Positions 2,022 through 41,294 of a stretch of 41,433 nucleotides of DNA are shown here, one piece after another. Below the pieces are notes generated by a model. That model saw only the letters and a program-made list of their open reading frames with translations. It was not told the DNA's origin and did not search any database. Position numbers and translations under genes: made by a program. This stretch comes from Treponema sp. (GTDB taxonomy: Bacteria > Spirochaetota > Spirochaetia > Treponematales > Breznakiellaceae), in assembly GCA_009784975.1 (NCBI GenBank), contig WQXG01000025.1, positions 1-41,433 on the forward strand. The letters run 5' to 3'. The stretch's first letter is position 1; each line of letters opens with the position of its first letter.

Positions 2022-4109
2022 TTACCGTAATGTGCGCAATAGGGAGCGTAATTCAGGATTTGCCGCGCTCTCTGTCTGTCTTGTTGTTTTTTCAGGCTGT
2101 AGTATAATTTCGTCTCCGGGTTCTATGCGATCAAAGAAACCAAACCGTGCCAAAGAACCAATTGCTATCTCTTCATCAACATTGGTAATTGTAAGTTTAC
2201 CGACCAGTTCATCGTTTGAGTAGACAAGTGCTAAACCTTCATTCGCTGTCTGCGGCCGCCCGCGCTTTACTACATCGTAAACTGCGTCCTGCTGAATACC
2301 ATCGGCTCTTCCTTTATTAATAAGCGCCTGTCCCTGTCTGCGCATTAATAGCCTTCCTCTTAACGGCATAGATGATGAAAGCTGGCTTACTATCCCGCGG
2401 GATGCATCACGCAATCTGTCTGTGCCGGTACGGTAAGTGTAAAATGTTCCGGCAGGAGAACCTGTTCTTCCTACAAAAAGTTCGGCTTTTATCGCGATAT
2501 CACGTTCATTTTCTGTTACGGAAACCAGCATAAAATAATCGGCGCCTGCTTCTCTTGCCTGCCTGAAACTCTGGGAAAATGTAGCCTGGCGTAATTCAAG
2601 ATTCATGGGCATTATATTGCGGTTATGTACCAATAAATCACGAATAACCCCTGCCGCAACTGTGCCCGCATCGGCATGATAAAAACTTGATTGACCTGCC
2701 ATGGAAAAGACGGCTACTTTCCAGTGACGTTCGATTATTTCTGTCGGGTTTACCTGCCACTGCCTGAACAGGGCATTGGAAAGAAGAGAACTGTAGGTTT
2801 CTACCGCGTCATTAAGTGAACGATCCGCTATGCCCTGATCCTGCAGAAAACGCAGTTCTTCCAGATAACGGGCAGGGTAGCCCTGTAATCTTAGAATCTC
2901 GGCATACTCGCGCCTGTCTCTGGCAAAAGGATTTAGCCTTAAGCCGCGCTGATATTCAAACAGCGCCTGTTCAATTAAATTGCGCTGGCGGAAACTTCTT
3001 GCCCTGTTAAAATGCCATGTTGCCCATCTTGCGCGGCGGGGATCTTCCAGATTGGTGGATGTGATAAGGGTTTCTTCCAGGGCAGCGCGGATAAATTCAT
3101 CCATTTCATTAATTGCCAGAGCGTTGGAAAAAACTGTTATTGCCTCTGCGGTGCGTCTCATTCTTACAAAGGACAATCCTTTTAAATACCACGCGCTCAT
3201 GTTGTTTCTGTCGGCGGCTATTGCTATGTCGCAAAGACGCGCCGCTTCTTCATATTCACCGTTGCGGTAACGCAATGTTGCCATCAGTACCTGAGTTGGT
3301 TCATGACCCGGTCTGTGGTGGAGGGCGCGCTGCGCGTAGCGGATAGCCTCGCTTAGCCTTCCGTTTTGTGAATAGATATATGCGGCGTAATAAAAAACAC
3401 GGTAATCTTCCGGGTGCTGCGTAAGAGCGCTATTAATGTACTGGATGGCAGATTCACCGTCACCCATGGAAACAAGAACAAGCGCAAGAGAAATTAATAA
3501 TCTGCGATCGTCGGGGTAGCGGCGGACTGCTTCACGGTAACGAAGTATCGCCTCGGACGGTTTGTTTCTCGCGATATCAAGTTCTCCGGCTGCAAAGAGA
3601 GCTTCCCTGTTGTAAGGTTCTCTTGAAAGGATTTGTGATACAAGAGCCGATGCCGCATCCAGCTGGCCTAGCGCGATGAGGGTGAAAACTTCCAGGTTTG
3701 CCACAGACATATTGGCGCGGGAGAGCTGTCTTGCTTTTCTTACCCAGTTTAGCGCTTCGTCGAATTCTGCCAGTTCATAGTAACATTCGGCTAAAGCGGC
3801 AGTTCCCTCAGCATGGGCGGGGTTGATCCTTAAACATTCAAGAAAAGCCTCGACCGCGGAGTACCAGTTTTCGTTAGCCATGTGGCTTTTACCCCGTTCA
3901 AAAAAAACCGCCGCCGTCTGCGCCTCCAGCGCTATCGGAAGAAGTAATAATATAATTAAAAAAAATAATTGGAATATTTTCTCGCGGACCGCAAACCGAA
4001 GGTTTGAAGGGGACGCAGAAAAGGGAAAAAGCGGTTCCCTCTTTCTTAATATTCTCTGCGATCTCTGCGCCTCAGCGTCTCTGCGAGATGTTCTTTCAAA
4101 TAAAATCAT
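2022..4109 (-). CDS. Exported TPR-repeat protein with FlgO/FlgT-like C-terminal region
   Basis: About 695 residues. Tandem tetratricopeptide repeats cover roughly residues 65-420 (AECYYELAEFDEALNWVRKA, YYAAYIYSQNGRLSEAIRYA). The C-terminal part resembles surface lipoprotein/FlgO-type domains (VAVFSMAGQSS, ADYFMLVSVTENE) followed by an FlgT-like beta region (GRLLMRRQGQALINKGRADG). A hydrophobic signal segment, IFQLFFLIILLLLPIALEAQ, is expected to direct export, but it begins only about 45 residues in. Residues 6-43 are translated from a copy of the window's palindromic repeat (3980-4088), so the ancestral n-region was probably MILFE plus EKIF. The start is ATG at 4109, with a GGGGGGG stretch 3 nt upstream; a TTG at 4121 is less likely. 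It is the last gene of the long minus-strand operon. Function unknown, probably periplasmic or outer-membrane scaffolding. Confidence 0.7.
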   Translation of the reverse strand: MILFERTSRRDAEAQRSQRILRKREPLFPFSASPSNLRFAVREKIFQLFFLIILLLLPIALEAQTAAVFFERGKSHMANENWYSAVEAFLECLRINPAHAEGTAALAECYYELAEFDEALNWVRKARQLSRANMSVANLEVFTLIALGQLDAASALVSQILSREPYNREALFAAGELDIARNKPSEAILRYREAVRRYPDDRRLLISLALVLVSMGDGESAIQYINSALTQHPEDYRVFYYAAYIYSQNGRLSEAIRYAQRALHHRPGHEPTQVLMATLRYRNGEYEEAARLCDIAIAADRNNMSAWYLKGLSFVRMRRTAEAITVFSNALAINEMDEFIRAALEETLITSTNLEDPRRARWATWHFNRARSFRQRNLIEQALFEYQRGLRLNPFARDRREYAEILRLQGYPARYLEELRFLQDQGIADRSLNDAVETYSSLLSNALFRQWQVNPTEIIERHWKVAVFSMAGQSSFYHADAGTVAAGVIRDLLVHNRNIMPMNLELRQATFSQSFRQAREAGADYFMLVSVTENERDIAIKAELFVGRTGSPAGTFYTYRTGTDRLRDASRGIVSQLSSSMPLRGRLLMRRQGQALINKGRADGIQQDAVYDVVKRGRPQTANEGLALVYSNDELVGKLTITNVDEEIAIGSLARFGFFDRIEPGDEIILQPEKTTRQTESAANPELRSLLRTLR
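3980..4088. repeat. Palindromic repeat copy A, inside the 5' end of the TPR gene
   Basis: A 109-bp segment starting TCTCGC (3980-3985) and ending GCGAGA (4083-4088), with GC-rich arms in inverted orientation. The left arm carries the 23-bp hairpin module at 3988-4010 (core CAAACCGAAGGTTTG). The right arm reads CTGCGCCTCAGCGTCTCTGC. On the minus strand it is read as codons giving the peptide TSRRDAEAQRSQRI. It has the same arm sequences as the copies at 26940, 36751 and 41137. Confidence 0.8.
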
Positions 4110-4132
4110 AGTCCCCCCCAATTTATAAACAA

Positions 4133-4894
4133 CTAAACCTTTTTGTGCGTTACGATTTTTATCGAATTGATTTTATGGCCGTCCATGTCCTGAACTATAA
4201 AATCATAGTCTTTGTATACGATCTTTTCGTTTTTAACGGGTATTTTCCCGAACAGGTCAAAAACAAAGCCGCCGAGTGTGTCAAAATCACCCACAGGCAG
4301 ATCGATGTTGGTTTCTTCCGCAAGGAATTCCAGGTTTACTCTGGCATCGCAGAGCCAGGAGCCTTCGCCAAGTACCACAACATCATCGGTTTCGTGATCA
4401 AACTCGTCCTGTATATCCCCGATTATTTCTTCGATTATATCTTCCATGGAAACAATGCCGGATACTCCGCCGTATTCATCCACTACTATGGCAATGTGGT
4501 TTTTTTTGCGGCGCAGTTCGCGCAAAAGATCATCAATATGTTTTGAAACCGGTACAAAAAAAGGTTTTCTTGCCAGTTCATTAATATTAAAAGGTTTATC
4601 GCTAATGAGCGCTTTTAATACATCCTTTACATGCAGGATGCCGATTACATTGTCTACAGTGTCCTGATATACGGGAAAACGCGAATGTTCACTTTCGCAG
4701 ATACATTCAAGCAGCTCTTCTTTGGATGCGGATGCGGAAAGAAAAACAGTGTCTGTGCGGGGAACCATCACTTCCTTTACCGTTGTATCCGATAATTCCA
4801 CGACACCCCTGATCATCTCCTGCTGATCTTCTTCCAGTTCTTTTATTGCTTTTGGGTTTAACTGAAAAGGCGCTCGGGCTGGGTTTGCTTTCAA
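4133..4894 (-). CDS. CorC/TlyC-type CBS-domain protein
   Basis: A 253-residue protein with two CBS domains (about residues 45-100 and 108-165; motifs VMVPRTDTVFL, HSRFPVYQDTVDNVIGILHVKD, DEYGGVSGIVSMEDIIEEIIG) and a C-terminal CorC/HlyC domain (about 175-250, ending VYKDYDFIVQDMDGHKI). The transmembrane DUF21 domain of full-length CNNM/CorC transporters is absent, as in the short cytosolic CorC and spirochaetal TlyC proteins. It probably takes part in Mg2+/Co2+ efflux control or nucleotide sensing; the haemolysin label is historical. The start is TTG overlapping the ybeY stop (TTGA), with GGGAGGAG just upstream on the minus strand (about 4898-4905). Confidence 0.88.
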   Translation of the reverse strand: MKANPARAPFQLNPKAIKELEEDQQEMIRGVVELSDTTVKEVMVPRTDTVFLSASASKEELLECICESEHSRFPVYQDTVDNVIGILHVKDVLKALISDKPFNINELARKPFFVPVSKHIDDLLRELRRKKNHIAIVVDEYGGVSGIVSMEDIIEEIIGDIQDEFDHETDDVVVLGEGSWLCDARVNLEFLAEETNIDLPVGDFDTLGGFVFDLFGKIPVKNEKIVYKDYDFIVQDMDGHKINSIKIVTHKKV

Positions 4895-5352
4895 CTTTCT
4901 CCTCCCGGCGGTATTATATGTTGGTTTTTAAGCTTGTTCAGTATCTCCTCCTGTAATAAAAGCATGGGCTCATTTGGTTCTATCGTTTCATGCTCCATTC
5001 CGTCTAAGTGCAGGATACCATGAATTATCAGTCTGCGTAACTCCTCATCCTGCGGTATTTTAAAAAAATCGGCATTTTCCCGCAGGGTATCCAGCGATAT
5101 TACGATGTCTCCGGGCAGATAAGTATCCTGTATTGTTTCGCCCAGATTAAACGAAAGTATATCTGTAGGCTCATTTTTATTCCGGTATTGATTGTTAAGC
5201 TCTTTTATTGTCCTGTCATCGCATAAAAGGATGGATAATTCCCAGTTGTTCCTTTTTATTTCATCCAGAACTTTCAGCGCGTAATCAATTATGGAGCCGC
5301 TGTAAGAGGGCATAGGGATTTCCTGCGCGGTAATTTGTATATTATTCATCAT
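4891..5352 (-). CDS. ybeY: Endoribonuclease YbeY, rRNA maturation factor
   Basis: At 153 residues this is the usual family size. It carries the UPF0054 zinc signature HGILHLDGMEH, with ligands H111, H115 and H121 (H-x3-H-x5-H). The typical upstream motif DILSFNLGE followed by GDIVIS is also present. YbeY is a single-strand endoribonuclease needed for 16S rRNA 3'-end maturation and 70S quality control. The start ATG overlaps the stop of the upstream 7TM-HD gene (ATGA), and the gene overlaps corC downstream by 4 bp. The phoH-pgpH-ybeY-corC order matches a common bacterial cluster. Confidence 0.95.
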   Translation of the reverse strand: MMNNIQITAQEIPMPSYSGSIIDYALKVLDEIKRNNWELSILLCDDRTIKELNNQYRNKNEPTDILSFNLGETIQDTYLPGDIVISLDTLRENADFFKIPQDEELRRLIIHGILHLDGMEHETIEPNEPMLLLQEEILNKLKNQHIIPPGGES

Positions 5353-6818
5353 GTTATCTCTTGTTTTGGATATTCGATTCTTGAATGATAATATCCGGCA
5401 AGCACTCTTACAAACGCTTTTTTAATTATTTCCAGTTCGCAGAAAGACAGGGCAGATTCTGATAATTGCCCGTGATCGATTTTTGCCTGAAAAAGCTGCT
5501 GGATAAATTTTTCCATTTTTCCCGGTGTGGGTTTGGTTAAAGTTCTTACGGCGGCTTCTGTGATATCGGCAAGCATTACAATAGCGGATTCTTTTGAGCG
5601 GGGCGGGCTTCCGGGGTAGGAAAAATCTTCGGAATTTACAGTTACGGGTTTTCCTTCCGGCGCGGTTTGTTCTGTCGCCTTGTTATAAAACCAGGAAATT
5701 ATTGAATTACCGTGATGTTCGGAAATAATTGATATTACATCTTTGGGCAGCCCAAGACTGTGCGCTTTTTCCACGCCAAGTTTTACATGAGAGCGGATGA
5801 TGGTCGCGGAAAGACGCGGCGCAATTTCATCATGTCTGTTGTGATCTGTTTGGTTTTCTACAAAGTAGGACGGGTTTTCCATTTTTCCGATATCATGGTA
5901 ATAAGCGCCGACACGCGCAAGAAGAGGATTCGCTCCGATGTCCTGGCAGGCTTGCTCCGCAAGGTTTGCTACCATTAACGAATGGCTGTAGGTTCCCGGA
6001 GCCGTTGTAAAAAGTTTGCGAAGGATCGGAGCATTCAGATCCGACAGTTCCATAAGCCTGAAAGGGGTAACCGCGTTCAGGGCATATTCAAGAGGCGGCA
6101 GGAAACCTATTGTTAACATTCCGCAGATTATGCCGTTTAATGATGCCCAGAATAAAAGGGCAGAGAAGTCATAGAATGCGGCTTTTCTGATGAGCAGAAT
6201 TATCACTGTCGCAGCGCAGTTTGCCGCGGCTATTACAAGCCCGGCTTTTATAAGGCTCATTCTGTTCTGCGCGCGGGAAGGGTTTGCATTATGAAGGACA
6301 GCGGCTGCTGCTCCTGAAACAAGCGCAATTATATAGGAGTGGCTGTCGAATGCTCCCGCCAGGAATGCGCCTAGCGGCAGGGCAAGAGCCATAATCATTG
6401 CGGGGCGTTTCCCCAAAAATACCGCAAGCAGCATTATAAAAAGAGCGGTGGGAACGGCAAGGGATACGGGGAAGCCTTCCGAGCCGGGGGAGAGGTTGTT
6501 TAACAATACGGAGCCGATTATGTAGGAGCCGGCAAGAGATGAGAGCAGATAACGTTCGCTGTTATTCATTTCTCTGCCGAAAATTACAGGCCGGCGTATA
6601 ATAAGATAAAGTATGTAAATTAAAAGTATAAGTAAAATAGAGCCCGCAAAATCAAATGGATTTTCTATACCTTCACTGTATCTGCTGCCCAGTATAACGC
6701 CGGCAGTAATGATGCATAATACAATGCTGAAAATATTCGGACCTGAGCGCAGGCGGCGAAGCATAACAGGGATGGTTCTTTTTAACTTTGCTATAAAGGG
6801 TTCACGTTTCTCTTTCAT
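5349..6818 (-). CDS. 7TM-HD membrane phosphohydrolase (PgpH/YqfF-type, short form)
   Basis: 489 residues: an N-terminal cytosolic patch, about seven hydrophobic segments (residues 28-245) and a C-terminal HD domain with H279 (GTYSHSLMVANLA), the HD pair H308/D309 (YYHDIGKMENP), H344 (IIRSHVKLG) and H368/H369 (SEHHGNS). Members such as Listeria PgpH hydrolyse c-di-AMP. The usual family length is about 700 residues because of a large extracytoplasmic 7TMR-HDED domain between the first and second helices; here that domain is missing. c-di-AMP hydrolysis is therefore inferred from the HD part only. The gene overlaps phoH by 17 bp and ybeY by 4 bp. Confidence 0.85.
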   Translation of the reverse strand: MKEKREPFIAKLKRTIPVMLRRLRSGPNIFSIVLCIITAGVILGSRYSEGIENPFDFAGSILLILLIYILYLIIRRPVIFGREMNNSERYLLSSLAGSYIIGSVLLNNLSPGSEGFPVSLAVPTALFIMLLAVFLGKRPAMIMALALPLGAFLAGAFDSHSYIIALVSGAAAAVLHNANPSRAQNRMSLIKAGLVIAAANCAATVIILLIRKAAFYDFSALLFWASLNGIICGMLTIGFLPPLEYALNAVTPFRLMELSDLNAPILRKLFTTAPGTYSHSLMVANLAEQACQDIGANPLLARVGAYYHDIGKMENPSYFVENQTDHNRHDEIAPRLSATIIRSHVKLGVEKAHSLGLPKDVISIISEHHGNSIISWFYNKATEQTAPEGKPVTVNSEDFSYPGSPPRSKESAIVMLADITEAAVRTLTKPTPGKMEKFIQQLFQAKIDHGQLSESALSFCELEIIKKAFVRVLAGYYHSRIEYPKQEIT

Positions 6819-7746
6819 TGTATGCCTGTATTATTTTTTTTATGAGCGGATTGCGCGCGACATCGCACGTGTGCAGAAAAGAAAAGCTTAAATCTTCAAT
6901 GCCTCTCAGGATTTCAAGGGCATGCAAAAGCCCTGAATCGGATTTGCGCGGCAGATCAATCTGGGTTGTATCCCCTGTAATGATTGCCCGCGTCCCATTT
7001 CCTATTCTTGTTAAAAACATTTTCATTTGTTCTTTGGTTGTATTCTGGGCTTCGTCCAGAATTACCATGCAGTCATTTAAACTTCGTCCTCTCATGTAGG
7101 CAAGAGGGGCGATTTCTATCGCTCTTGTGTCTTCCATTCTGTTAATTACATCGAAGGGGACAAGAGATTCCATCGCGTCGTAGAGCGGTTTTAGATAGGG
7201 GTCGATTTTTTGGGCAAGATCTCCGGGGAGGAAGCCCAAATTTTCACCTGCTTCTACTACAGGACGGGTAAGCACCAGTTTACGCATTTTTTTTGATAAC
7301 AGCATTTGAAGAGCATGGGCGATAGCAAGGTAGGTTTTGCCGGTTCCCGCAGGTCCTATGCAGGAACAGATTTCGTTTTCTCTCATTCCCTGTATATATA
7401 AAGCCTGGTTTTTACTGCGCGGATATACCCTTTTAAAGCCATGGGGTATCTGGATCATAGAATCGCGGAAAACTCCCTTTTCGCCGGATGAAAAATCCCC
7501 TGCCAGGGTGCGGATATAATCGGGAGAAGGTTCATCTCCTTCTTTTACCGCAGTTACCAGATTGTCAATCATCGTCTTAAAACGTTCAACAGCGGATGCT
7601 TCTCCTTCAAAGTGAATTTCATTGCCTCTTGCCGTAATGTATCCGCCAAGGGAACTTTCAATTATTTTTAGATTCCCGTCATTTGCGCCGCAAATCCCTG
7701 AAAGTAATTCCCTGTCATCAAAAGCTATAGTTATTCCGTCCTCCAA
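6802..7746 (-). CDS. phoH: PhoH-family ATPase (PhoH/YbeZ)
   Basis: A P-loop ATPase with Walker A GPAGTGKT, Walker B MVILDEAQNTT and the TRPVVEAGENLGFLPGD segment that defines PhoH-like proteins. An N-terminal KH-like part precedes it (GYITARGNEIHFEGE). PhoH proteins usually sit next to ybeY and are thought to act in RNA metabolism. I chose a TTG at 7746 because AGAGG lies 5 nt upstream and the resulting N-terminus (MEDGITIAFDD) matches family length (314 residues). A TTG at 7776, with no ribosome-binding site, would add 10 residues. Confidence 0.9.
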   Translation of the reverse strand: MEDGITIAFDDRELLSGICGANDGNLKIIESSLGGYITARGNEIHFEGEASAVERFKTMIDNLVTAVKEGDEPSPDYIRTLAGDFSSGEKGVFRDSMIQIPHGFKRVYPRSKNQALYIQGMRENEICSCIGPAGTGKTYLAIAHALQMLLSKKMRKLVLTRPVVEAGENLGFLPGDLAQKIDPYLKPLYDAMESLVPFDVINRMEDTRAIEIAPLAYMRGRSLNDCMVILDEAQNTTKEQMKMFLTRIGNGTRAIITGDTTQIDLPRKSDSGLLHALEILRGIEDLSFSFLHTCDVARNPLIKKIIQAYNERET

Positions 7747-7792
7747 AAAAACCTCTTTTCTAATTCTATACCTCAATAATTCAGCCCGTCAA

Positions 7793-7831
7793 GTAGACGG
7801 CTGTCTACAGTAGCCGGCTGCTTACAGTAGC
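7793..7831. repeat. Two-copy 17-bp tandem repeat with small hairpin
   Basis: CGGCTGTCTACAGTAGC (7798-7814) is followed immediately by CGGCTGCTTACAGTAGC (7815-7831), two differences apart. The first copy overlaps a 6-bp stem, GTAGAC (7793-7798) and GTCTAC (7803-7808). The repeat lies between the stop of the lptD-like gene and phoH and may be a short slippage product or an intercistronic RNA structure. Confidence 0.75.
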
Positions 7832-10800
7832 TTATTCCACAGTCCATTTTTCTGTTCTGCCGTCGTATTTAATGTCCGTTTTAATTTCTGTTATTGGTTT
7901 CCATTGAACCAGGAAGGAAATATCTGAAGTAAACCTGAACGGCTCTGTAGAGGTGCTTCTGTACGGGTACATTCTTATGCTTAATGTCGCAGTCCAGTCT
8001 CCCAGAAAATGGTTAACCTGAAGGTTCAGGCTTTGCAGTTTAAAGCCGGATCTGCGCCGTTTGGATTCGTCAAAAAAGTTAAACGAGTCAATTAAATCTA
8101 TAAACAGGTTGTTCTGGGGTCCGTCAATATACATATGCGTTAAATCCGCCATTCCGGGAAAGTCTTTAAAGTACCTGAAAATAACAGAGTTATCTGATGT
8201 TGAAGACAATGTTAACTCAAGAAGCCCGGTTATTCTGGCTGATAAACTCATGGTAAACTGGAAATTGGAATCGGTATATCGCTGGAGATTAAAATCAAGC
8301 GAAGTATTAAAGCTAAAATTCATATTAAAACGGTTTCTTATTATTTCTATATTTCTGAATGATTTGCCGTATGATATTTGCAGCCTGTTTGGATTCAGGG
8401 AAGGTTCCCCCTCGCTTTTCCATTCTCCGCCCCGCGTATGATCGTTTTCGTCATTAAAAACAAATCTGGATTTGGCAACTTTGATAGCGGAGAAATTTAC
8501 CCTTAGTTCCCACAATGACAATGACGAGTTTATTCTGGTAATTTCAAAATCACTTTCCGGATCAATTGTCATGTTAAACGATAATGATCCAATGTTGGCG
8601 AATCTCAGCGTTTCCCTTATTTCTATAGGCCTGAATATCCAATCGCCTTCTTCTTTATCCGGGAATTGTGTGTTGACAGCGGTAAGTCTTTCCATGCGGA
8701 AACTTACGCCTGTTTCCGTGATCCAGAATCTGAATGAGCCGCTTGTAGAAATTAATTCATCCAAAGGAGGCAGATTCGCGCTGACTGTTATGGATTGGTT
8801 TTTGTCCATAATGTTTGCGGAAATATTCGCGGAAAGCTGATGGCTGTTAAGACCGTAAATATCAACGCCGTCTTTTCTTTCTTCTTTTACCCATGAGCCC
8901 CATTGGGGAGTAAGTTCAGGACCATGCGGGCTGTCGTTTTCATTGTAAGCTTTAGATCTTACCAAAGTACCTCTGAATGAATATTGAAGGCTTGACTGGC
9001 GGAATATCGGGTTGTCAAAAAATGGCTGAAATCTGCCGGTGTAAGAATAGGAAGATGTATATGATGTCTGGGCAAACTCCTGTCTTCGCAGCCGTCTCAT
9101 TGTATCAGTATCAACTTCTCCGCTTGAGCTTGTAAAAGCATCATCGTAAAGATAAATATCCCTGTATGTACCGCTGCCCGTTAAAGATACAGTGTTGGTA
9201 AATATTCCTGTTGAGTGATCCATTCGGATATTTATACTTGCGTTTCCGCTGACGCTTGTTCTGATCGATTGAACATCGGAATAATCAATATCGTCTACTG
9301 TTCTCCAGTTTTTGTTTATAAATTGAAGTTCAGAAGAACTTGTAGGAGAAAACTGGTAATCAATGCTAAAACGTATATTTCCTGTTCTGGGTAATGTAAA
9401 AGTCTGTCTTAACACAGGAGGCGTTAAAGGATCTGCCGCCGCCGCTGCTGCAGCTGCCGCCGCTTCTGCTTCATTTTCAGGCCATGGAGAAATGGGTATG
9501 CCTATATTTTTTAAAGGGTCTTCTACAGGAGCATCCGGTGTTCTTGTTGTTCTGGCTGTAGTATTGCCAAGATTTAAAGGGGTGCCGGAGACAGAGCCTG
9601 ATATACTATAGAGTGTTAATTTATCCGGCGCGTAAAAAAAGATACCGGGGTCCTGACTGTTTATAACTCTGTCTGTGGGATTTGATCTCATGGTGCCGAA
9701 ACCCAGTGTCATGGAGATATTGGAAATTGATAATCTGGAAATGAACGGAGCAAGTTTGGGTAACTGGGGATTTATGCTTCCGCTGATTTGCCATTGATAT
9801 GATTGAATTTCATTTTGCGCAGAGGTAGCAGGATCAATCGCCGCGCCCTGCTGGAGCATACTGATATAATCCATGCTTTCCGCGCGATCCAGAAAATCCC
9901 TGTCTACGTAAGGATCGGAATAGTATGGAAACAACAATGAAAGCCCGCCGTATCTTCCGCTGATACCGGTGCTTAATCTCATTCTGTAACGGAACGGAAC
10001 CTGAAAGAAAAGAAATTTGGACGTATTCCAGTCAAAGGTACCGTCATAATCCGGCGCGTACGGGGTGTAAGCTCCGGTTGATGAATTATGAAAGATAGTT
10101 CTGGAAAAACCTAATCCCAAAGTAAAATCTATCGCGTTTAAAATTCCTGTTCTGGGCGTTAAGAGATCTAAACCCGCATATACTCCAAGGTTAACATAAT
10201 AATCCAGCATGGCTTTTAGGCTTACTTCTGTTTTGCTAACCGCTTTTTTTCCTGTGCTGCGAAGGAATAATCCGTGCTGTTCTTTTTCCATGTCGTTTGA
10301 ATTGCCTAGAATCCTGCTAAGAGAACTGGAATCAGAAGAGTCTGCTTTGGGACGTCCTAAAATATAATAGGTTGTCTGTATAAAACCGCCCTCTCTGTTG
10401 CGGTATCCAAGCACCGGATGAAAAACAATTTCGTCTGTGGGAAAAAAGAAAAATGGAATATATAAAACAGGTATTTCTCCTACTTTTAAAACCGCGTTAA
10501 AAATCGCAAAATCAGAACCCGGAAGAAGCCAGAGCCTGGAAGCGTTTATTGACCAAAACGGCTCTTCGCTCCCCGCGCTTGATATTCTTGCATTTCTGAG
10601 TATTGTAACATCATCTCCTGTACGTGAAATAACCTGCCCGGAAAAAAGATACGCAGAACCGTCGCTTTCCAGGGTAGAACTTCCGTCCAGGAAAATGCTT
10701 GACCAGTCGTCTATGTTAACTTTTATATTTTCCCCGCGGAAAGTTTCTGTTTTATCTTTATCTATTTTTTTGTACTCAACCTTTCCTTTGGCTGTTATTA

Positions 10801-14154: not shown

Positions 14155-14162
14155 ATATGGAA

Positions 14163-14261: not shown

Positions 14262-14334
14262 GGCGGCTTAGCTCAGTTGGTAGAGCAAACGGCTCATATC
14301 CGTTGGGTCATAGGTCCGAGTCCTATAGCCGCTA
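14262..14334 (+). tRNA. tRNA-Met (anticodon CAT)
   Basis: A cloverleaf of 73 nt: acceptor GGCGGCT/AGCCGCT (the first pair is G-U), D arm GCTC-AGTTGGTA-GAGC, anticodon stem AACGG/CCGTT with loop CTCATAT (anticodon 14295-14297), five-base variable loop, T stem ATAGG/CCTAT. The T loop reads TCCGAGT instead of the usual TTC start, so position 55 is C. No CCA is encoded. A T-run (14335-14343) follows directly. Elongator tRNA-Met is most likely; a lysidine-modified tRNA-Ile cannot be excluded from sequence alone. Confidence 0.88.
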
Positions 14335-26940: not shown

Positions 26941-27107
26941 GACTCTCGCAGAGACGCAGGGGCGCAGAGAACGCAGGGTTGTAGTTCGGCATCTTAACCT
27001 ATATCCCTGGAAAAATATGTTAGCTTTCATAGATTACCAGGAAATAGAGTTAAGAATTCAAATAATAACTCCGCGTCCTCTGCGCCTCCGCGCCTCAGCG
27101 AGAGTCT
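26940..27107. repeat. Palindromic repeat copy B between convergent genes
   Basis: 168 bp with terminal inverted repeats: AGACTCTCGC at 26940-26949 and GCGAGAGTCT at 27098-27107. The arms (about 37 bp each, GC/AG-rich with repeated CGCAGAG or CTCTGCG units) flank an AT-rich core of about 90 bp (26978-27067). It occupies essentially the whole gap between two convergent stop codons (26940 and 27116). It has no coding sequence and could form a cruciform or a two-way terminator hairpin. Confidence 0.85.
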
Positions 27108-29132: not shown

Positions 29133-29133
29133 T

Positions 29134-29175
29134 GGTAACTGCTGCCGTTTTGGCGAAATGATGGCAGCTGCTACC
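29134..29175. promoter_or_regulatory. Inverted repeat between divergent promoters
   Basis: GGTAACTGCTGCC (29134-29146) and GGCAGCTGCTACC (29163-29175) pair at 11 of 13 positions with a 16-nt spacer. It fills the space between the -35 box of the cNMP gene (ends 29132) and the -35 box of the hydrogenase operon (starts 29176), so it could be a shared operator or a hairpin. It does not resemble a Rex or CRP site. Confidence 0.5.
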
Positions 29176-29204
29176 TTGCCAATATCCTTATAAACTTATA
29201 CAAT
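29176..29204 (+). promoter_or_regulatory. Hydrogenase operon promoter
   Basis: TTGCCA (29176-29181), 17-nt spacer, TACAAT (29199-29204). It leaves a leader of about 11 nt that contains AGGGGGA before the ATG at 29223, so this transcript does carry a ribosome-binding site. Confidence 0.6.
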
Positions 29205-29222
29205 ATCTGCATAGGGGGACTC

Positions 29223-29711: not shown

Positions 29712-29719
29712 GAGTATTT

Positions 29720-31609: not shown

Positions 31610-31619
31610 GGGGAAAAAT

Positions 31620-33368: not shown

Positions 33369-33394
33369 AAAGTAAATTAAAGGAGAAAAAAGCT

Positions 33395-34804: not shown

Positions 34805-34810
34805 TTTTAT

Positions 34811-35488
34811 ATGAAAAACGAAGATATTTTAAGTAAAATCGATCATACGCTTTTAAAAATGACAGCTTCATGGCAGGAGATTCAAACTCTCTGTGATGAA
34901 GCTGTGCGTTTTAAGACCGCGTCCGTTTGTATTCCTCCTTCCTATGTACACCAGGTTTGCCTCGAATATAAAAATTTAAATGTATGTACAGTTATTGGTT
35001 TTCCGCTGGGTTATAATTTGTCTGAGGTAAAGGTTTTTGAAACCGCCTATGCCGTTAAATGCGGCGCAAATGAAATTGATTTGGTTATAAATATAGGCGA
35101 TGTAAAGAATAATGACTTTGGTTTAGTGCTGGAAGAAATTGATATGATAAAAAAAGCCTGTTTAAAAGCAGATTGCGGCGAAAAAATATTAAAAGTAATT
35201 ATAGAAACCTGCTATTTAACAGAAGAAGAAAAAGTGTGTTTATGCAAAATTGTAACGGAAGCCGGAGCCGATTTTATAAAAACCTCGACAGGTTTTGGAA
35301 CAGCGGGAGCGGCATTGGCAGATATCGAACTTTTTAAAAAGCACATTGGCCCCAATGTAAAAATAAAAGCCGCAGGCGGCATAAAAACCCGCGAAGACCT
35401 TGTAGCATTTATCAACGCGGGCGTTTCGCGTATTGGGACAAGTTCCGCGGTAAAATTGCTCTGCGGCGAGAACGCTTCTGGGTATTAA
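34811..35488 (+). CDS. deoC: Deoxyribose-phosphate aldolase
   Basis: 225 residues, a TIM barrel with DHTLLKM at the start, EIDLVINIGD, the Schiff-base lysine in DFIKTSTGFGTAGA, and IKAAGGIKT. It splits 2-deoxyribose 5-phosphate to glyceraldehyde 3-phosphate and acetaldehyde in deoxynucleoside catabolism. It lies 6 bp after the purine permease, which makes a nucleoside-salvage pair. Its stop overlaps the end of the convergent membrane protein gene. Confidence 0.95.
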   Translation: MKNEDILSKIDHTLLKMTASWQEIQTLCDEAVRFKTASVCIPPSYVHQVCLEYKNLNVCTVIGFPLGYNLSEVKVFETAYAVKCGANEIDLVINIGDVKNNDFGLVLEEIDMIKKACLKADCGEKILKVIIETCYLTEEEKVCLCKIVTEAGADFIKTSTGFGTAGAALADIELFKKHIGPNVKIKAAGGIKTREDLVAFINAGVSRIGTSSAVKLLCGENASGY

Positions 35489-36045
35489 AAATTACGTGCA
35501 GGAGTCAGCGGGGCTTCCCATCTGAGAGTGTCTGAATTGGGGAAAGCAACTACTCTGTATTGGGTAAGGTCGATATGATATATGCTTCCTTCGTATTTAA
35601 TTTCAAATGCCATGATTAAATCGCCTCTTCCGTTTTTTTCATAACTTACCCTTGGGCTGATTATTTGCACCCCTTCTTCATACATAAAAAAACCGATGTT
35701 TACTTTATAGTTTTCTGTATTTTCACTTTCCAGTTCAAAATCTTCTGTTCCGATAAATCGCTTTTTTGAGGCTTCGTTTACGGTATTGATATAAACAATC
35801 ACAAAAGCATGTCCTTCCTCTGCCGCGATTGTTTCATTGTTCAATATAAAAGAACCTGAAAGCTGGGTATGAGATAAATTAAAATATAAACCGTCCTGAT
35901 GTGAAGATGTAAAAATACCGCTTCTGAATATTATAACTGCCGCGCTTACCAAAAATATAACTATGGGAATTAGCCATTTATATTTGAGTATAATTTTAAA
36001 TATTCTTTCTAATTTGTCTGTAAAACTGTCAATATGTTCTTCCAT
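35485..36045 (-). CDS. Hypothetical membrane-anchored protein
   Basis: 186 residues with a single N-terminal transmembrane segment (about 22-40, KYKWLIPIVIFLVSAAVIIF) after a short charged cytosolic stretch. The remaining residues form a mostly beta, presumably extracytoplasmic domain (HTQLSGSFILNNETIAAEEG, VSYEKNGRGDLIMAFEIKYE) with some likeness to DUF4352-type immunoglobulin-like domains. It begins immediately after the hsp20 stop, so it is cotranscribed. No function assigned. Confidence 0.65.
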   Translation of the reverse strand: MEEHIDSFTDKLERIFKIILKYKWLIPIVIFLVSAAVIIFRSGIFTSSHQDGLYFNLSHTQLSGSFILNNETIAAEEGHAFVIVYINTVNEASKKRFIGTEDFELESENTENYKVNIGFFMYEEGVQIISPRVSYEKNGRGDLIMAFEIKYEGSIYHIDLTQYRVVAFPNSDTLRWEAPLTPARNF

Positions 36046-36046
36046 T

Positions 36047-36604
36047 TTAGTTTCCTTCTTTTACAATTTCTATGCGAATTCCGTCGTTTTGATCCGGCTC
36101 GTCTTTGGGAGGGATTGATACGCGCAGAATGCCGTTTTTATAAACCGCTTTTACTTTTTCCTGCGCGTATTTATCAAGCGGCACAAAATATTTTTGTTTT
36201 TCGATATCTTTCATTTTAAGACGGCGTTTAAAGTAACGGACATTTTCATCTTTTTGCAAAAATGCAGGAGTATCATCGTCCATTTTTGCGGAGAAAACCA
36301 TGTAATCGCCCTGGAAGGAAAGACTAATGTCTTTTTCATCAAAGCCGGCAAGAGCAAATTCAAAAACAAGGGATCTGTCTTCCAGCATAAAAACATTCAT
36401 TGGAGGATACGAATAATTGGGATAAAAATCGGTGTTTTCGTCACAGAAATATTTGTCAAAAGAAAACGGTTCCTGATTAAAAATCGTCCTGTCCAGATTG
36501 CGCGGGTTAAATTTTCTGTGAAAATCATCCTGAAAACTTCTGGCTGCTTCGAAAATCTCATCAAAGACATTGCCCAAATCCATGTAATTTCTTGTACCTT
36601 TCAT
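36047..36604 (-). CDS. Small heat-shock protein Hsp20
   Basis: 185 residues. The alpha-crystallin domain spans about residues 65-165 (MLEDRSLVFEFALAGFDEKDI, YFKRRLKM, VKAVYKNGILRVSIPP). The C-terminal I/V-x-I oligomerisation motif is VSIPP-like. Small heat-shock proteins hold unfolding proteins in a refoldable state. AGGAG at 6 nt spacing precedes the ATG. A 5' leader of about 90 nt contains a 9-bp dyad, so its expression may be regulated at transcription or by RNA structure. Confidence 0.9.
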   Translation of the reverse strand: MKGTRNYMDLGNVFDEIFEAARSFQDDFHRKFNPRNLDRTIFNQEPFSFDKYFCDENTDFYPNYSYPPMNVFMLEDRSLVFEFALAGFDEKDISLSFQGDYMVFSAKMDDDTPAFLQKDENVRYFKRRLKMKDIEKQKYFVPLDKYAQEKVKAVYKNGILRVSIPPKDEPDQNDGIRIEIVKEGN

Positions 36605-36616
36605 AAAAAACTCCTG

Positions 36617-36644
36617 TTATGTCATGCTTACGCCAATGACATAA
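36617..36644 (-). promoter_or_regulatory. 9-bp dyad immediately upstream of the hsp20 ribosome-binding site
   Basis: TTATGTCAT (36617-36625) and ATGACATAA (36636-36644) form a perfect 9-bp inverted repeat with a 10-nt loop, ending one base from the CAGGAG site on the minus strand. It may be an RNA hairpin or an operator. It is not a CIRCE element. Confidence 0.55.
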
Positions 36645-36700
36645 TTGATATAAAGAACCCCCATACAGGCGATCCCAAAGAGCGCAACGGCTCCTAGTTA

Positions 36701-36729
36701 AATTTACAGGTATTCTAACAAAAAGTCAA
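36701..36729 (-). promoter_or_regulatory. hsp20 promoter
   Basis: On the minus strand TTGACT (36729-36724), 17-nt spacer, TAAATT (36706-36701). It predicts a 5' leader of about 90 nt. No sigma-32-like boxes were recognised. Confidence 0.5.
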
Positions 36730-36750
36730 ATAAAAAGAATAAATCGAGCA

Positions 36751-36948
36751 AGGACTCTCGCAGAGGCGCAGAGGCGCGGAGGACGCAGAGGGAAGAGGGG
36801 GAATGAGCGGTTGTTTGAATTCTTCCCTTTTATTCCTACATATCTCGGATTAATTCATAGATTTCTTGGGAAAAAGGAGAAGATTTCGTACTAAAACTCT
36901 GCGTCCTCTGCGTCTCCTTCAAACCTTCGGTTTGCGGTCTGCGAGAAA
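36751..36948. repeat. Palindromic repeat copy C
   Basis: About 198 bp. Left arm AGGACTCTCGCAGAGGCGC... (36751-36790); right arm from CTCTGCGTCCTCTGCG (36897) to GCGAGA (36941-36946), carrying the 23-bp hairpin module at 36916-36938. The core (36791-36896) is AT-rich. It lies between the stop of the YmdB-like gene and the hsp20 promoter and, with that promoter, makes up the 350-bp non-coding stretch 36605-36954. Confidence 0.85.
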
Positions 36949-36954
36949 TCTTCC

Positions 36955-37767
36955 TCATTCAATCTTGTGCGACTTTTCTACGGCAACACGTATTCGTTCG
37001 ATTGATTGGGTTTTGCCGTCATTGGCTATGTCCAAAAATACGCCCTGGAGTTCAAGGTTATCCCATGCGTCTTTTGTCCAGTCCGGGATACCCGATAAAT
37101 ATTCCCTGATGCGGGAGTTAATTTCGCAGCCGCCCACAGAGTGCTGGCTGCCCGTTCTGCCCGCGTCGCTGATGCAGGCGGTTCCGCCGGGCAGGATTAT
37201 TTCATCTGCGGTTTGGACACGGGTATGAGAGCCGATCACGGCAGAACAAAGACCGTCTGCGGCGTAAAAAAAAGTTTTCTTTTCGGCGCTTGCCTGCGCG
37301 TGAAAATCAACAATTACATAGGGAGTTTGCTTTTTTAATTTTGCCAAAGTGTCGTGGGGTCCCCCCGAGAGAAAAGCGAATGGGCTGTTGGCGTGCAGGC
37401 GGTTAAAACCGTTTTGGCCCAAAAAAACAGCGACCGCTATTTTTTCGCTGCCAACTTTAAAAACAAAGGAGCCAAAGCCGGGAGCTTCGCTGTTAAGGTT
37501 ATCGGGGCGCAGTATAAATCGGCATGAATCAAGATTTTCTGTTAAATCTTTTTTGTAAAAACAGCAATCCCCCAGAGTGACGGCGTTTGCGCCCAGCTTG
37601 TGAATATACATAGCATGACTGTGTCCAAGCCCGTTACCGCCGGTTGCTCCGTCTGCGCAGACAATCATAAAGTCCCATTCGTAACGTGTCTTTAAATCTT
37701 TTATTGCTTTTTTAAAAGTATATACTCCCGCTTTACCGACTATTTCCGCAATATAGAGAACTTTCAT
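36955..37767 (-). CDS. YmdB-family metallophosphoesterase with altered metal site
   Basis: 270 residues, same length as Bacillus YmdB (2',3'-cyclic nucleotide phosphodiesterase) and collinear with it: IRF-type end, IVDFHAQASAEK, GSHTRVQTADE, LPGGTACISDAGRTG. But positions that bind metal in the family differ: the GD near residue 8 is AE, the NGEN motif is C-A-D-G (37-40), GNH is GDC (66-68), and the HTH pair is H181-T-R183. H156 and H181 remain. Catalysis is therefore doubtful or metal-shifted. It overlaps the upstream TPR gene by 4 bp. Confidence 0.82.
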   Translation of the reverse strand: MKVLYIAEIVGKAGVYTFKKAIKDLKTRYEWDFMIVCADGATGGNGLGHSHAMYIHKLGANAVTLGDCCFYKKDLTENLDSCRFILRPDNLNSEAPGFGSFVFKVGSEKIAVAVFLGQNGFNRLHANSPFAFLSGGPHDTLAKLKKQTPYVIVDFHAQASAEKKTFFYAADGLCSAVIGSHTRVQTADEIILPGGTACISDAGRTGSQHSVGGCEINSRIREYLSGIPDWTKDAWDNLELQGVFLDIANDGKTQSIERIRVAVEKSHKIE

Positions 37768-38297
37768 TTTGATTGACCATTAATTGCGTCATAGCCGCAA
37801 AGGAGACGTTCAAATTCCGCTGCTGCGCGAAAATCTTTTAGTTCCCTGCAAGTGTCGCGCAGATTATAAAGCGCATCGTAAAAATGCGGCCATAAATTTA
37901 CAGATTTTTCAAAACAATTACGGGCTTCTTCAAAATTACATTTGTTAAAATATAAAACGCCCAGATTATTCCATGTTTTAGGATCGTTGTCATTGCGCAG
38001 CAGGGCAGAGAGGTAACATTCTTCTGATAAATCAAATTCTTTTAACTCATAATAGATAAGACCGAGGGAATGCCAGGCTTCGCAAAGATCTTCGTTTATC
38101 GTTATGCAGCGCCGGAAACTTTCAATCGCATCGGAATAATCACCTGTTTTTTGCTGGGCGATGCCCAAATTCAGCCAGAGTACGGCATTTTCAGGCTCCA
38201 AAATCAGAGCCTGGCGGAACACGGAGATTGCCTCAAAAGGACGGTTTGCCTCGGTTAGAGCGATACCCGAATTGTTTAATACTGCTGCGTTTTCCAT
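37764..38297 (-). CDS. TPR-repeat protein
   Basis: 177 residues made of about four to five tetratricopeptide repeats (FEAISVFRQALILEPENAVL, GDYSDAIESFRRCITINEDL, EFDLSEECYLSALLRNDNDP, NFEEARNCFEKSVNLWPHF). No signal peptide, so it is probably a cytosolic protein-protein adaptor. First gene of the TPR-ymdB unit. The promoter (38304-38332) ends 6 nt before the ATG with no ribosome-binding site. Confidence 0.85.
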   Translation of the reverse strand: MENAAVLNNSGIALTEANRPFEAISVFRQALILEPENAVLWLNLGIAQQKTGDYSDAIESFRRCITINEDLCEAWHSLGLIYYELKEFDLSEECYLSALLRNDNDPKTWNNLGVLYFNKCNFEEARNCFEKSVNLWPHFYDALYNLRDTCRELKDFRAAAEFERLLCGYDAINGQSK

Positions 38298-38303
38298 ATA
38301 TAT

Positions 38304-38332
38304 AATTTACATTAAAAAGGCAGGATAAACAA
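38304..38332 (-). promoter_or_regulatory. Promoter of the TPR-ymdB unit, leaderless type
   Basis: On the minus strand TTGTTT (38332-38327), 17-nt spacer, TAAATT (38309-38304), then 6 nt to the ATG. Confidence 0.55.
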
Positions 38333-38387
38333 CTAAAATAGTTTTTAAAAACGTTTTGGGATACTATTATTTTCTTAAGATATATAT

Positions 38388-38393
38388 TATAAT
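38388..38393 (+). promoter_or_regulatory. -10 box before the cyclase-like gene
   Basis: A perfect TATAAT 9 nt before the GTG start at 38403. No -35 at normal spacing; TTGGGA at 38356-38361 is too far. Confidence 0.35.
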
Positions 38394-38402
38394 AACTTTA
38401 CC

Positions 38403-39914
38403 GTGAAAAACATTAACGAATACAACAGCGGAATGACAGAGTTTGAATTATTCTCTTTTCTTTACGATAAAATTGTCACAAAGGAGATTACTTCCTTTTC
38501 AAAGTTAAGAGAACTAATAGCTCCTGTCTTAAAGGATAAATGGACTCATCCTGTAGTTATGAGGGCTTTTCTCATGCTGAAACGCCTGAATTGGGGGTTT
38601 TTTGCGTCAATTTGCCCAAATACCCATAAAAAACTCTGGAAAGAACTGGTAATTCCGGACAGGGATTTTCCCGAAGCGGGCGATTTAAAAAAGACGCTTC
38701 AAATTTCCAACCTTTATGTGGCAATGCTTGATATCCACGGTTATACAAAGTTTTGCATGGAATCCCGGAAAAATCTGTCTATGATGCATAATTTGGACTG
38801 GGCTATAGAAAACGAGGTAAAACGTATTTCTACCCAGTGCGGCGCGATAAGCCAGAGGGAACGCGGGGATGAAATGGTCGTAGTTGCCGCCAGCGCTACG
38901 GATGCGCTTATGGTTACTCTGTGTATTATCGACTATTTCGGCAAGACAGATACTGTAGGCGATCCTGATATATCAACAAAACGTACCGGCAATGCCGAGG
39001 CGCTGCCTCCTTTTAAAATTTCTGCCGGGATTACAGGCGGTAATACTCAAAGCCCTCTTATAATTACAGAAAGGGGAAACCTCGCCGGCTTCCTTTTAAA
39101 TTCCGGAGCGAGGCTTCAAACAAGGGCGAATGAACTTTCTCCTAAAGATTCAAGGATTATGATCGCCAAGCAGGTCATGATGAATTATGAAAAAGAAAAT
39201 AAAGAAAACAAAGACAATAAATGTATACTTTTGCAAAAAGATTCAATCTATTTTTTTGATACAGGGCATATCGAATTTAAAGGTGTAATGATTCCAACCT
39301 GCGAAGTTGTTTTTGACAAAGACGAACGCTACAAGGAAAAATTTTCAGAGGATATGACAAAATTGTTTTCGTCCATTCGTGAAAATCTGTGGGAGCAGAG
39401 AATATTCCAGGATTTGATGGAGCTGCTGACAAGGGTAGCGCAGACAATGCCGAAGTTTTCTGTTACGCCTTCCGCCCCTGTTCACGGAATACAAACTGTC
39501 ACAAACGAATCTTATGTCCAAATTTGCCGTCTTGCTCTTAAAGCCTATGCCGTAAGCGAAGATTATTATCTTGCGGTAGAATATTTAACGGCTCTTGGTG
39601 ATATCAGCGAAAATATAAAATCATTTGACAGATTGATTTTTGATTACCTAAAAGGCATTACAGAAAAATACAAACTTCTGCTTGATGCTTTTGAATCACG
39701 CATTAACAAGGAAGTTGATGAAAAAGCCGAGCAGATATTCGGGAATCATCATAAAACATGGACTGCCGCCAAAAACGGCTGCCAGATATACGAAAAAATG
39801 CAGGGCATCGGACGCAAGAGCAAAGAAATAACCAAGAAAAAAAATCTGTGGCTCAGCACTTTTTCCCAGAATAAAGAAAAGATGGAATTTACTCTGTACT
39901 CGGGGAAGAAATAG
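38403..39914 (+). CDS. Class III nucleotidyl cyclase-like protein
   Basis: 503 residues. An uncharacterised helical N-terminus (about 1-95) is followed by a class III cyclase homology domain (about 103-305): metal Asp candidates D110 (AMLDIHGYTKF) and D156 (ERGDEMVV), transition-state N233 and R237 (LLNSGARLQTRA), and EFKGVMIPTCEVVF near its end. A helical C-terminal region of about 190 residues follows. It may make cAMP or cGMP, which would suit the cNMP-binding proteins at 27-29 kb, but substrate is not certain. The start is GTG with no clear ribosome-binding site; ATG 38433 is an alternative. Its end overlaps the convergent MFS gene by 26 bp. Confidence 0.7.
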   Translation: MKNINEYNSGMTEFELFSFLYDKIVTKEITSFSKLRELIAPVLKDKWTHPVVMRAFLMLKRLNWGFFASICPNTHKKLWKELVIPDRDFPEAGDLKKTLQISNLYVAMLDIHGYTKFCMESRKNLSMMHNLDWAIENEVKRISTQCGAISQRERGDEMVVVAASATDALMVTLCIIDYFGKTDTVGDPDISTKRTGNAEALPPFKISAGITGGNTQSPLIITERGNLAGFLLNSGARLQTRANELSPKDSRIMIAKQVMMNYEKENKENKDNKCILLQKDSIYFFDTGHIEFKGVMIPTCEVVFDKDERYKEKFSEDMTKLFSSIRENLWEQRIFQDLMELLTRVAQTMPKFSVTPSAPVHGIQTVTNESYVQICRLALKAYAVSEDYYLAVEYLTALGDISENIKSFDRLIFDYLKGITEKYKLLLDAFESRINKEVDEKAEQIFGNHHKTWTAAKNGCQIYEKMQGIGRKSKEITKKKNLWLSTFSQNKEKMEFTLYSGKK

Positions 39915-41079
39915 TTTTTCTGCCTTTCATAAACATTATTAATAAAACTGCCGCAAGCAGAGACAAGCATGCGCCGAAAAGAAACGGGACTGCGTGTCCG
40001 TAAGCATTCCATAAAAGACCGGCTATTACGCTTGCGGGAAGCAGAGCGATACCCGCTACAGTAGAATGCAGCCCAAGCAAGGTGCCTTTTAAAGGCGCAG
40101 GCGCAATTTCCGCGACAAAGGCGCGTTCTACGCCTGTTATCATTGCCGTAAAAATTCCGTAAAGGATAAAAACAGCAATTATGGAAAAAGCGTTATCTGC
40201 AAATGCAAACCCGAAGTAACAGGCGGCGAATGTAAGATAACCGGGAACAAGCAGATTTTTTCTTCCTATTTTATCAGACAGTTTTCCAAGCGGCACGGAT
40301 AAAAGCGCTGCAACCGCGTTATAAACCAGAAAAAGCAGAATAACATTCGCTTCGCTAAACCCTACTGCTTTTGCCTTTAAAATTAAAAAAACTTTGGATG
40401 AGTTTCCCAGCGTAAAAATAAAAACAACAAACAGATACAATTTTAGCTGATTATCTATTTTATTTATATTTTTCCAAAACGGAGTTTTTTCTGTTTTTGC
40501 TTCTATTTGCTCTGTATCCCGTTTTTTTTCTTTTACAAAAAGAAACATAAAAAGCCCAATCGCTGCCGGTATCATGGAAAGCGCAAAAAGGTTTTTATAA
40601 CTATAATCGCCCCCGGATCTTATTATAATTAAATAAACGATAAGTATTCCAAGCGCGGCTCCTGCTTTATCAAGCGCCTTATGAAGCCCGAATGCTTTCC
40701 CCATATTTTCCTTATCTGCGCTTTCGCTGACTAAAACATCCCTGGGAGCAGTTCGTATCCCTTTGCCGACTCTGTCAATTACTTTGGCGCCGAGTATCCC
40801 TATCCATGAACCCGCGAAAAGCAATGCGAATTTATATACCAATCCCGCTCCATAGCCAAAAAAGGCAGTTAGTTTTTTCTTCTGAAACTTGTCTGTTAAA
40901 TAGCCTGAAAAAACCTTTAATAAACTGGCAAGGCTTTCGGCAATTCCTTCAATCAGCCCGACAAGCGCGGGTGTAGCGCCGAATACGCTTACAAGGTACA
41001 GCGGTATCAGCGGATAAACCATCTCTGTGCTGATATCTGTGAAAAAACTTATTAGTCCTATGAATACTACGTTAAGCAT
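39889..41079 (-). CDS. MFS transporter
   Basis: 396 residues with 11-12 transmembrane segments. Segments such as FTDISTEMVYPLIPLYLV near the N-terminus, GRKNLLVPGYLTF in the middle and RVGKGIRTAPRDVLVSES (MFS loop 2-3 type) identify it as a major facilitator. The substrate is unknown; the PRDVLVSES segment is typical of a bacterial MFS subgroup with no agreed substrate. The convergent 26-bp overlap with the cyclase gene is unusual but both frames are intact. A TAAAAT box lies 8 nt before the start, and a stronger promoter pair is further upstream at 41376-41406. Confidence 0.88.
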   Translation of the reverse strand: MLNVVFIGLISFFTDISTEMVYPLIPLYLVSVFGATPALVGLIEGIAESLASLLKVFSGYLTDKFQKKKLTAFFGYGAGLVYKFALLFAGSWIGILGAKVIDRVGKGIRTAPRDVLVSESADKENMGKAFGLHKALDKAGAALGILIVYLIIIRSGGDYSYKNLFALSMIPAAIGLFMFLFVKEKKRDTEQIEAKTEKTPFWKNINKIDNQLKLYLFVVFIFTLGNSSKVFLILKAKAVGFSEANVILLFLVYNAVAALLSVPLGKLSDKIGRKNLLVPGYLTFAACYFGFAFADNAFSIIAVFILYGIFTAMITGVERAFVAEIAPAPLKGTLLGLHSTVAGIALLPASVIAGLLWNAYGHAVPFLFGACLSLLAAVLLIMFMKGRKTISSPSTE

Positions 41080-41136
41080 GTTGCATTATTTTAACAAATT
41101 TAGATATTTTGAGGAAGAGTTTTTACCACGGGGGAT

Positions 41137-41205
41137 TTGCTAGGACTCTCGCAGAGACGCGGAGGCGCGGAGGACGCGGAGAGGAAGAAGAGGGAAGAGG
41201 GGGAA
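41137..41205. repeat. Palindromic repeat half-copy D1
   Basis: TTGCTAGGACTCTCGC begins the arm (41137-41152), followed by CGGAGGCGCGGAGGACGCGG and a purine-rich tail ending about 41205. There is no inverted right arm. It lies in the 354-bp non-coding stretch between the MFS start (41079) and the window end. Confidence 0.8.
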
Positions 41206-41207
41206 GA

Positions 41208-41294
41208 TTGCCAAGACTCTCGCGGAGGCGCGGACCGCAAACCGAAGGTTTGAAGGAAGACGCGGAGGAAGAGGGAAGAGGGGGGAGGGGGGAG
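41208..41294. repeat. Palindromic repeat half-copy D2 with hairpin module
   Basis: TTGCCAAGACTCTCGC (41208-41223) opens a second, same-direction arm only a few bases after D1. It carries the 23-bp hairpin module at 41234-41256 and then a purine-rich tail of AGG/GGGA units to about 41294. No right arm is seen. Confidence 0.8.

Follow-up and report, generated by a model that had tools for sequence, protein, structure and literature searches.

The stretch of DNA considered here, hereafter the window, comprises the 41,433 nucleotides of contig WQXG01000025.1 from the draft genome of a Treponema sp. (GenBank assembly GCA_009784975.1). At four loci, one of them 3' of an open reading frame (ORF) for an AMP-binding protein and another 3' of a YmdB-like ORF, it carries palindromic repeats, which an earlier note on this DNA had grouped in one family and likened to repetitive extragenic palindromic (REP) sequences or miniature inverted-repeat transposable elements (MITEs). 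The comparisons reported here suggest that these repeats are probably gene-less hairpin copies of a mobile element occurring across phyla, and that its gene-bearing form carries GxxExxY, a protein that would be the candidate mobiliser.

The repeat family in the window and beyond

Reading all four loci bears out the family described earlier, with amendments. The end core, GACTCTCGCNGAG, occurs in the window at five exact sites and at a sixth with two mismatches, a number that none of 100 shuffles reached. The sharing of this core holds exactly for three loci; at the locus starting at 3980 it is degenerate (TTTCTCGCGG... and ...CTGCGAGA). An inverted second arm is present, as had been claimed, at three of the loci (copies 1, 2 and 3; Table 1), and the fourth (41144-41270), near the contig end, consists of two half copies in direct orientation. 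At the gathering threshold of Rfam the repeat copies gave no match; the window's only match is a tRNA gene at 14262-14334.

Table 1. Repeat copies in the window
Copy	Position	Strand	Description
1	3980..4088	.	Degenerate hairpin; left arm with 22-bp insert (3989-4010); right arm 4054-4088
2	26941..27106	.	Full hairpin GACTCTCGC...GCGAGAGTC, 166 bp; begins directly after the TAA of the AMP-binding ORF
3	36753..36948	.	Inverted arms 3' of the YmdB-like ORF; 22-bp insert in right arm, 36916-36937 (minus)
4a	41144..41181	+	Half element: single arm and purine-rich tail
4b	41215..41270	+	Second half element, direct orientation; 22-bp insert 41235-41256

The genome to which the window belongs (G000, a 2.6-Mb draft in 73 contigs, of which the window is C25) holds 69 exact cores and none of the reversed control. 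The inverted end TCNGCGNGA follows 30-230 bp downstream in 36 of the 69. Outside the core the flank is indeed shared, with G at -5 in 63 copies, T at -7 in 60 and A at -2 in 58; the previously proposed GCWAR fits just 25 of the 69, and TTKGSNAR before GACTC describes them better. The consensus end is TTKGSNAR-GACTCTCGC, without a GTAG or CGTC tag. A full copy is a hairpin that measures about 165 bp: a GC-rich arm (about 38 bp) is followed by an AT-rich inner palindrome, which is imperfect, and then by the arm in inverted form; many of the remaining copies are half or tandem, with purine-rich tails, and related CAC units are found beside CGC units. Within the arms, a 22-bp hairpin-like insert, CCGCAAACCGAAGGTTTGAAGG, occurs at 42 places in the genome (up to two mismatches). 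Its position relative to the arm units varies, as the window copies illustrate (Table 1), and the insert could itself be a tiny element lodged inside the first.

The earlier statement that similar strings exist in unrelated bacteria proved correct. A 21-mer of the arm, GACTCWCGCRGAGRCGCRGAG, recurs across many phyla, in 98 stretches or more, where chance would yield about 2 matches in 257 billion bases of even composition (our own arithmetic). The 80 matches listed include Planctomycetota, Verrucomicrobia, Chloroflexi, Alpha-, Gamma- and Deltaproteobacteria, Cyanobacteria, Holophagaceae and other Acidobacteria-type metagenome-assembled genomes (MAGs), Bacteroidales, Bipolaricaulota and spirochaetes. 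The strict 17-mer is present in just 4 of a set of 98 genomes of relatives, G000 included. In an alphaproteobacterial MAG (loci L115, L132, L134, L144, L146, L158 and L198) the CGC hairpin is nested in a larger palindrome, GCCACCCAG...CTGGGTGGCC, at 7 of 8 loci, with matched inner stretches of 118-137 bp. Searches of the open-licence PubMed Central (PMC) literature, judged mostly from their listings, yielded no description of such an element.

GxxExxY genes between inverted arms

Two genes of G000, on contigs C14 and C48, encode GxxExxY, a protein of about 125 residues; both belong to TIGR04256 (125 and 134 bits; cut-off 35) and to PF13366, PDDEXK_3 (127 and 131 bits; cut-off 22). The C14 gene sits between inverted copies of the window repeat, aligned over about 108 bp. 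On C48, inverted CACAAAGG arms lie either side of the gene; one of these CACAAAGGCAC arms abuts the ATG and the other lies about 20 bp past the stop codon.

This arrangement recurs in other genomes. Terminal inverted repeats (TIRs) were scored as the best local alignment between the upstream flank and the reverse-complemented downstream flank, with a threshold of at least 30. In a first set of 37 genes (29 loci of relatives and some loci found with the 21-mer), the median score with 300-bp flanks was 26, compared with 18 for mismatched pairs, and 18 of the 37 exceeded the 95th percentile of this null. With 150-bp flanks, 15 of the 37 reached the threshold, as did 2 of 49 other ORFs, which were taken from the relatives' loci L208-L236 only (p=2.9e-5). 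In a second set, from genomes of many phyla chosen by the 21-mer, 39 of 68 genes reached it, compared with 1 of 45 other ORFs and with 3.3% of mismatched pairs (p=1e-10). Genes with short flanks were skipped (L162, L208 and L214 in the first set; L331 and L356 in the second). Where genes were chosen independently of the repeat, the threshold was reached at 14 of 29 relatives' loci and by 3 of 7 plasmid-borne genes, or 4 of 7 when overlap of the right arm with the end of the ORF is allowed (plasmid hit H8 was left out of the inspection).

The same picture is obtained starting from the repeat. The 98 listed loci, picked by the 21-mer alone, contain 88 inverted arm pairs, 59 with a spacer below 150 bp. 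Seven of the eight pairs with an arm score of at least 30 and a spacer of 300-700 bp enclose GxxExxY, the exception being L131; no GxxExxY lies within two pairs with a longer spacer (L140, L200) or two with a shorter one (L139, L154). Three GxxExxY genes (L221, L337, L445) seem to have a complete hairpin on each side instead of a single arm, and that of L230 has another kind of TIR (AACAAACGGATTTGTTC...), which departs from the phased code described below.

Residues of a PD-(D/E)XK site are conserved over 58 GxxExxY proteins (D in 57, E or D in 58, K in 58, and Q of QxxxY in 56), and weak similarity exists to Cas4 profiles and to a CRISPR-associated PHROG. On account of these motifs and weak matches, GxxExxY is regarded as a putative nuclease with a Cas4/RecB-type fold. 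The AlphaFold2 model of a Nostoc GxxExxY has a pLDDT of 85.8 and a pTM of 0.80; no relative in the PDB was detected by sequence at E<=1. Among viral contigs, 188 stretches matched a search pattern and none coded for a relative, a narrow search because the pattern came from a two-sequence alignment; phage records gave no match.

Arm code, co-occurrence and site occupancy

The arms are built from phased units, mostly two to four, each consisting of CRC and 4-5 further bases. Over 110 arms of 55 genes, with a median of three units, successive CRC/ACAGG marks lie 8, 9 and 10 bp apart 66, 63 and 32 times, a total of 161 compared with about 6 expected after shuffling (about 2 per spacing). The units vary by gene, and five flavours were distinguished: CRC+RGAG/NAAG, CRC+NNAT, ACAGGAT, CACGAAC and CACGACG. 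A CACGAAC-type arm has 27 exact matches genome-wide in G000 (loci noted: L039, L055 and L207), and neither of the two GxxExxY genes of this genome has that flavour.

Flavour follows the protein. For 58 genes, labels were assigned by eye in advance of tree building, leaving out genes without a visible TIR, L230 and L368 (TIR of at least 30, flavour not assignable), and L330, L353 and L381 (TIR 26-27); those of L204, L213, L218, L220, L320 and L332 are readings of the arm, some or all of the scored stretches being below 30. On the maximum-likelihood tree of the 58 GxxExxY domains the five labels need 4 changes, which is the minimum, compared with a mean of 21.8 after shuffling (0 of 200 shuffles as low), and leaving out the C-terminal columns, where the reading may run into the right arm, does not alter the result. 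A single genome, G110, contributes eight rows of four of the five classes, each of which groups with its flavour; arm flavour therefore tracks the protein and not the host. Ends of the CTCWCGC-like type, as in the window repeat, form by eye one supported clade (12 rows, 100/98), to which L204 and L229, with CAC arms, belong as well. Without labels, a Mantel test gave r=0.40, with a permutation maximum of 0.21 (52 genes). We infer that GxxExxY recognises its arms.

Repeat and protein also tend to occur in the same genomes. GxxExxY exceeds the cut-off in 40 of 50 genomes picked by the 21-mer and in none of 14 controls; as that set was picked by the repeat, 40 of 50 is not a base rate (the 50 leave out the genomes behind L108, L147, L171 and L181, the Treponema loci, L129 and L186-L203). 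Among the 98 relatives, GxxExxY is present in 13 of 15 genomes with at least 30 arm matches versus 25 of 83 others (p=5.6e-5), in 18 of 24 versus 20 of 74 at a threshold of at least 10 (p=4e-5) and in 19 of 29 versus 19 of 69 at one of at least 5 (p=5e-4). The reversed control of these counts is not independent, because tandem arms read alike backwards. Phylogeny was controlled by a split into genus and rest only (at least 10 matches, E<=1e-15), which gave 9 of 14 versus 4 of 25 (p=0.003) and 7 of 10 versus 12 of 49 (p=0.009).

An improbable alternative is that these are REP/MITE repeats moved by a REP-associated tyrosine transposase (RAYT, an HUH enzyme of the Y1 type), with GxxExxY as a hitchhiker in the hairpin. 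G000 does have a single Y1_Tnp gene, with several repeat copies in that region of the contig, and RAYT presence rises weakly with arm count (11 of 15 versus 39 of 83 at 30 or more matches, p=0.054). However, that gene is flanked by other repeats, with GGTAATTGATACC ends, and of 26 Y1_Tnp genes of relatives, whose ORF ends were set by a rough motif rule, 4 have a TIR of at least 30, with phased CRC units in 0 of the 5 TIRs listed (score of at least 26). Y1_Tnp was not found in the repeat-rich drafts G008, G019, G025 and G073, and by both enclosure and co-occurrence the association with GxxExxY is the stronger. RAYT as the driver was rejected, on the grounds of different ends, phased arms not seen and weak co-occurrence. 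The Y1_Tnp gene of G000 (L032:5232-6380, contig C18) has its own repeat of about 90 bp on both sides, and this GGTAATTGATACC-ended repeat also occurs gene-less near L032:7110-7145, 9606-9700 and 9860-9960.

Comparable sites were inspected in other genomes, all comparisons being between species. 3' of the AMP-binding ORF, different phased elements are found in G000, G023, G015, G008 and one copy in G019, and none in G033, G034, G014 and the second G019 copy; both flanking genes were matched in G015, G023 and G033, the upstream gene being the sole anchor elsewhere. 3' of YmdB, a CACGAAC-type hairpin is present in G019, and the examined stretches of G008 and G033, anchored by YmdB alone, have none. 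Between fabD and fabG, Sphingomonas parapaucimobilis has a gene-bearing copy; this junction is short and hairpin-free in S. paeninsulae and Methylobacterium. Finally, at a site in Nostoc, contiguous in 8 of 11 genomes, two flavours occur: TCTCACGC is gene-bearing in G143 and a hairpin only in G150, G149 and G156, and TTTCGCGC is gene-bearing in G151, accompanied by a reversed GxxExxY-like sequence in G152 and G153, and a hairpin only in G148.

The Nostoc site, where gene-less alleles keep a hairpin of either flavour and GxxExxY-like sequence occurs in either orientation, lends itself to a homing-type explanation, in which GxxExxY would be a free-standing homing nuclease residing in the hairpin, its target, and the hairpins would spread by other means. 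We regard this as possible, if doubtful: no hairpin at all is seen 3' of YmdB in either G008 or G033, nor in the sequence joining fabD to fabG in S. paeninsulae and Methylobacterium, although between species a loss is also possible.

On a further view, the hairpins would serve the host as RNA or terminator elements and would regulate GxxExxY, itself a host gene, with no mobility at all. Repeat copies do often sit shortly after stop codons, and 16 of 34 classified arrays (55 in total, 8 inside ORFs) lie between convergent ORFs, compared with 28 of 119 adjacent ORF pairs at the same loci. Such a role is nevertheless very hard to reconcile with the dispersal of 69 cores, occupancy that differs from genome to genome behind a given gene, the copy at the fabD-fabG junction, several flavours per genome and identical flavours in distant phyla; the window copies have no Rfam match, and no compensatory signal was seen in the inner hairpin. 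We give it scarcely any credence.

The best reading is that of a hairpin element of a new kind, with a gene-bearing form that encodes GxxExxY, a putative DNA-cutting enzyme that may spread it. The earlier note had looked to empty sites in relatives and to an enzyme with matching ends: the same genes are followed in congeners by other, shorter or no elements, and the enzyme, found, is GxxExxY and not a RAYT. Its notion of a widespread, little-described REP- or MITE-like element is supported by the 69 cores, the occupancy differences in congeners, the 21-mer in many phyla and the enzyme gene with matching ends.

Several observations weigh against this reading. Of 104 GxxExxY genes (a count that includes about six genes twice, one gene as two loci), 49, about half, have no TIR by the measure used, and the C48 gene is among the misses (scores of 20 and 15), because the stretch treated as domain takes in its left arm, which adjoins the ATG. 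By eye, no target-site duplication could be recognised at the AMP-binding, YmdB, Nostoc or fab sites in these between-species comparisons, and gene loss from an older insertion explains part of the Nostoc pattern. The inner AT-rich hairpin shows no compensatory signal, complementarity within copies being no greater than across copies (p=0.16, 13 segments). The concordance of flavour and tree would also arise from linked descent without recognition. Among the 15 repeat-richest relatives, G023 and G070 lack GxxExxY and G025 has a fragment only (incomplete drafts), and the 25 of 83 relatives that have the protein with fewer than 30 arm matches also count here. For CACGAAC, flavour-by-flavour co-occurrence with the matching gene did not emerge: such arms are abundant in G000, G019, G034, G044 and G050, with no CACGAAC-flavoured gene recognised among the labelled genes, and G012 has a GxxExxY gene of this flavour and zero arm matches.

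If GxxExxY is the mobiliser, it would recognise its own phased arms and nick or cut at that place, or where single-stranded DNA has extruded a hairpin; repair or re-insertion would then copy the hairpin elsewhere, with or without the gene. Gene-less hairpins would originate by internal deletion and spread in trans. We lean slightly towards the broader proposition that there is a pan-bacterial superfamily of hairpin elements mobilised by GxxExxY nucleases, with one phased arm code per lineage (CRC-RGAG, CRC-NNAT, ACAGGAT, CACGAAC, CACGACG), and thus a transposase-free counterpart of REP/RAYT. If true, this would provide a function for a widespread protein family whose NCBI name refers only to a motif, an owner or partner for a large class of intergenic repeats in several phyla, and a REP-like mobile system on what is probably a Cas4/RecB-type nuclease fold. 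It also raises the question whether a protein-DNA code links each GxxExxY lineage to the phased arm that goes with it.

Comparison with known systems

Parallels exist among mobile elements of several kinds. I-Ssp6803I is a PD-(D/E)XK homing endonuclease hosted by an intron; as with GxxExxY, a lone PD-(D/E)XK nuclease is the likely agent of a selfish element, but the host here is a hairpin repeat, and GxxExxY is weakly Cas4-like. MITEs of DDE insertion sequences are gene-less inverted-repeat copies existing alongside a gene-bearing form, as are the hairpins described here; in contrast to them, no target-site duplication was recognised by eye in the between-species comparisons and the enclosed protein is not a DDE transposase.

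CGTC-tagged REPs are likewise short intergenic palindromes of several phyla and are said in PMC3733652 to lack a dedicated transposase. They have stems of 8-9 bp, a CGTC head and mostly a CCA tail, whereas the GxxExxY hairpins have neither head nor tail and do have a candidate partner.

The closest resemblance is to the REP/RAYT systems (REPtrons, and the paired REPs known as REPINs or bacterial interspersed mosaic elements, BIMEs; PMC2817692, PMC3733652). Both comprise palindromic intergenic repeats that often lie downstream of genes, a single gene between inverted repeats, concordance of repeat and protein, and gene-less paired copies. The protein of REP/RAYT is an HUH tyrosine transposase, here a PD-(D/E)XK GxxExxY; the arms here consist of 8-10-bp phased units and lack the GTAG/CGTC tag of a 20-40 bp stem-loop. 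Since the defining Y1 transposase between inverted copies of the repeat and the defining tags were looked for and not found, the GxxExxY hairpins are not members of REP/RAYT; by analogy, they would work like such a system with an unrelated nuclease.

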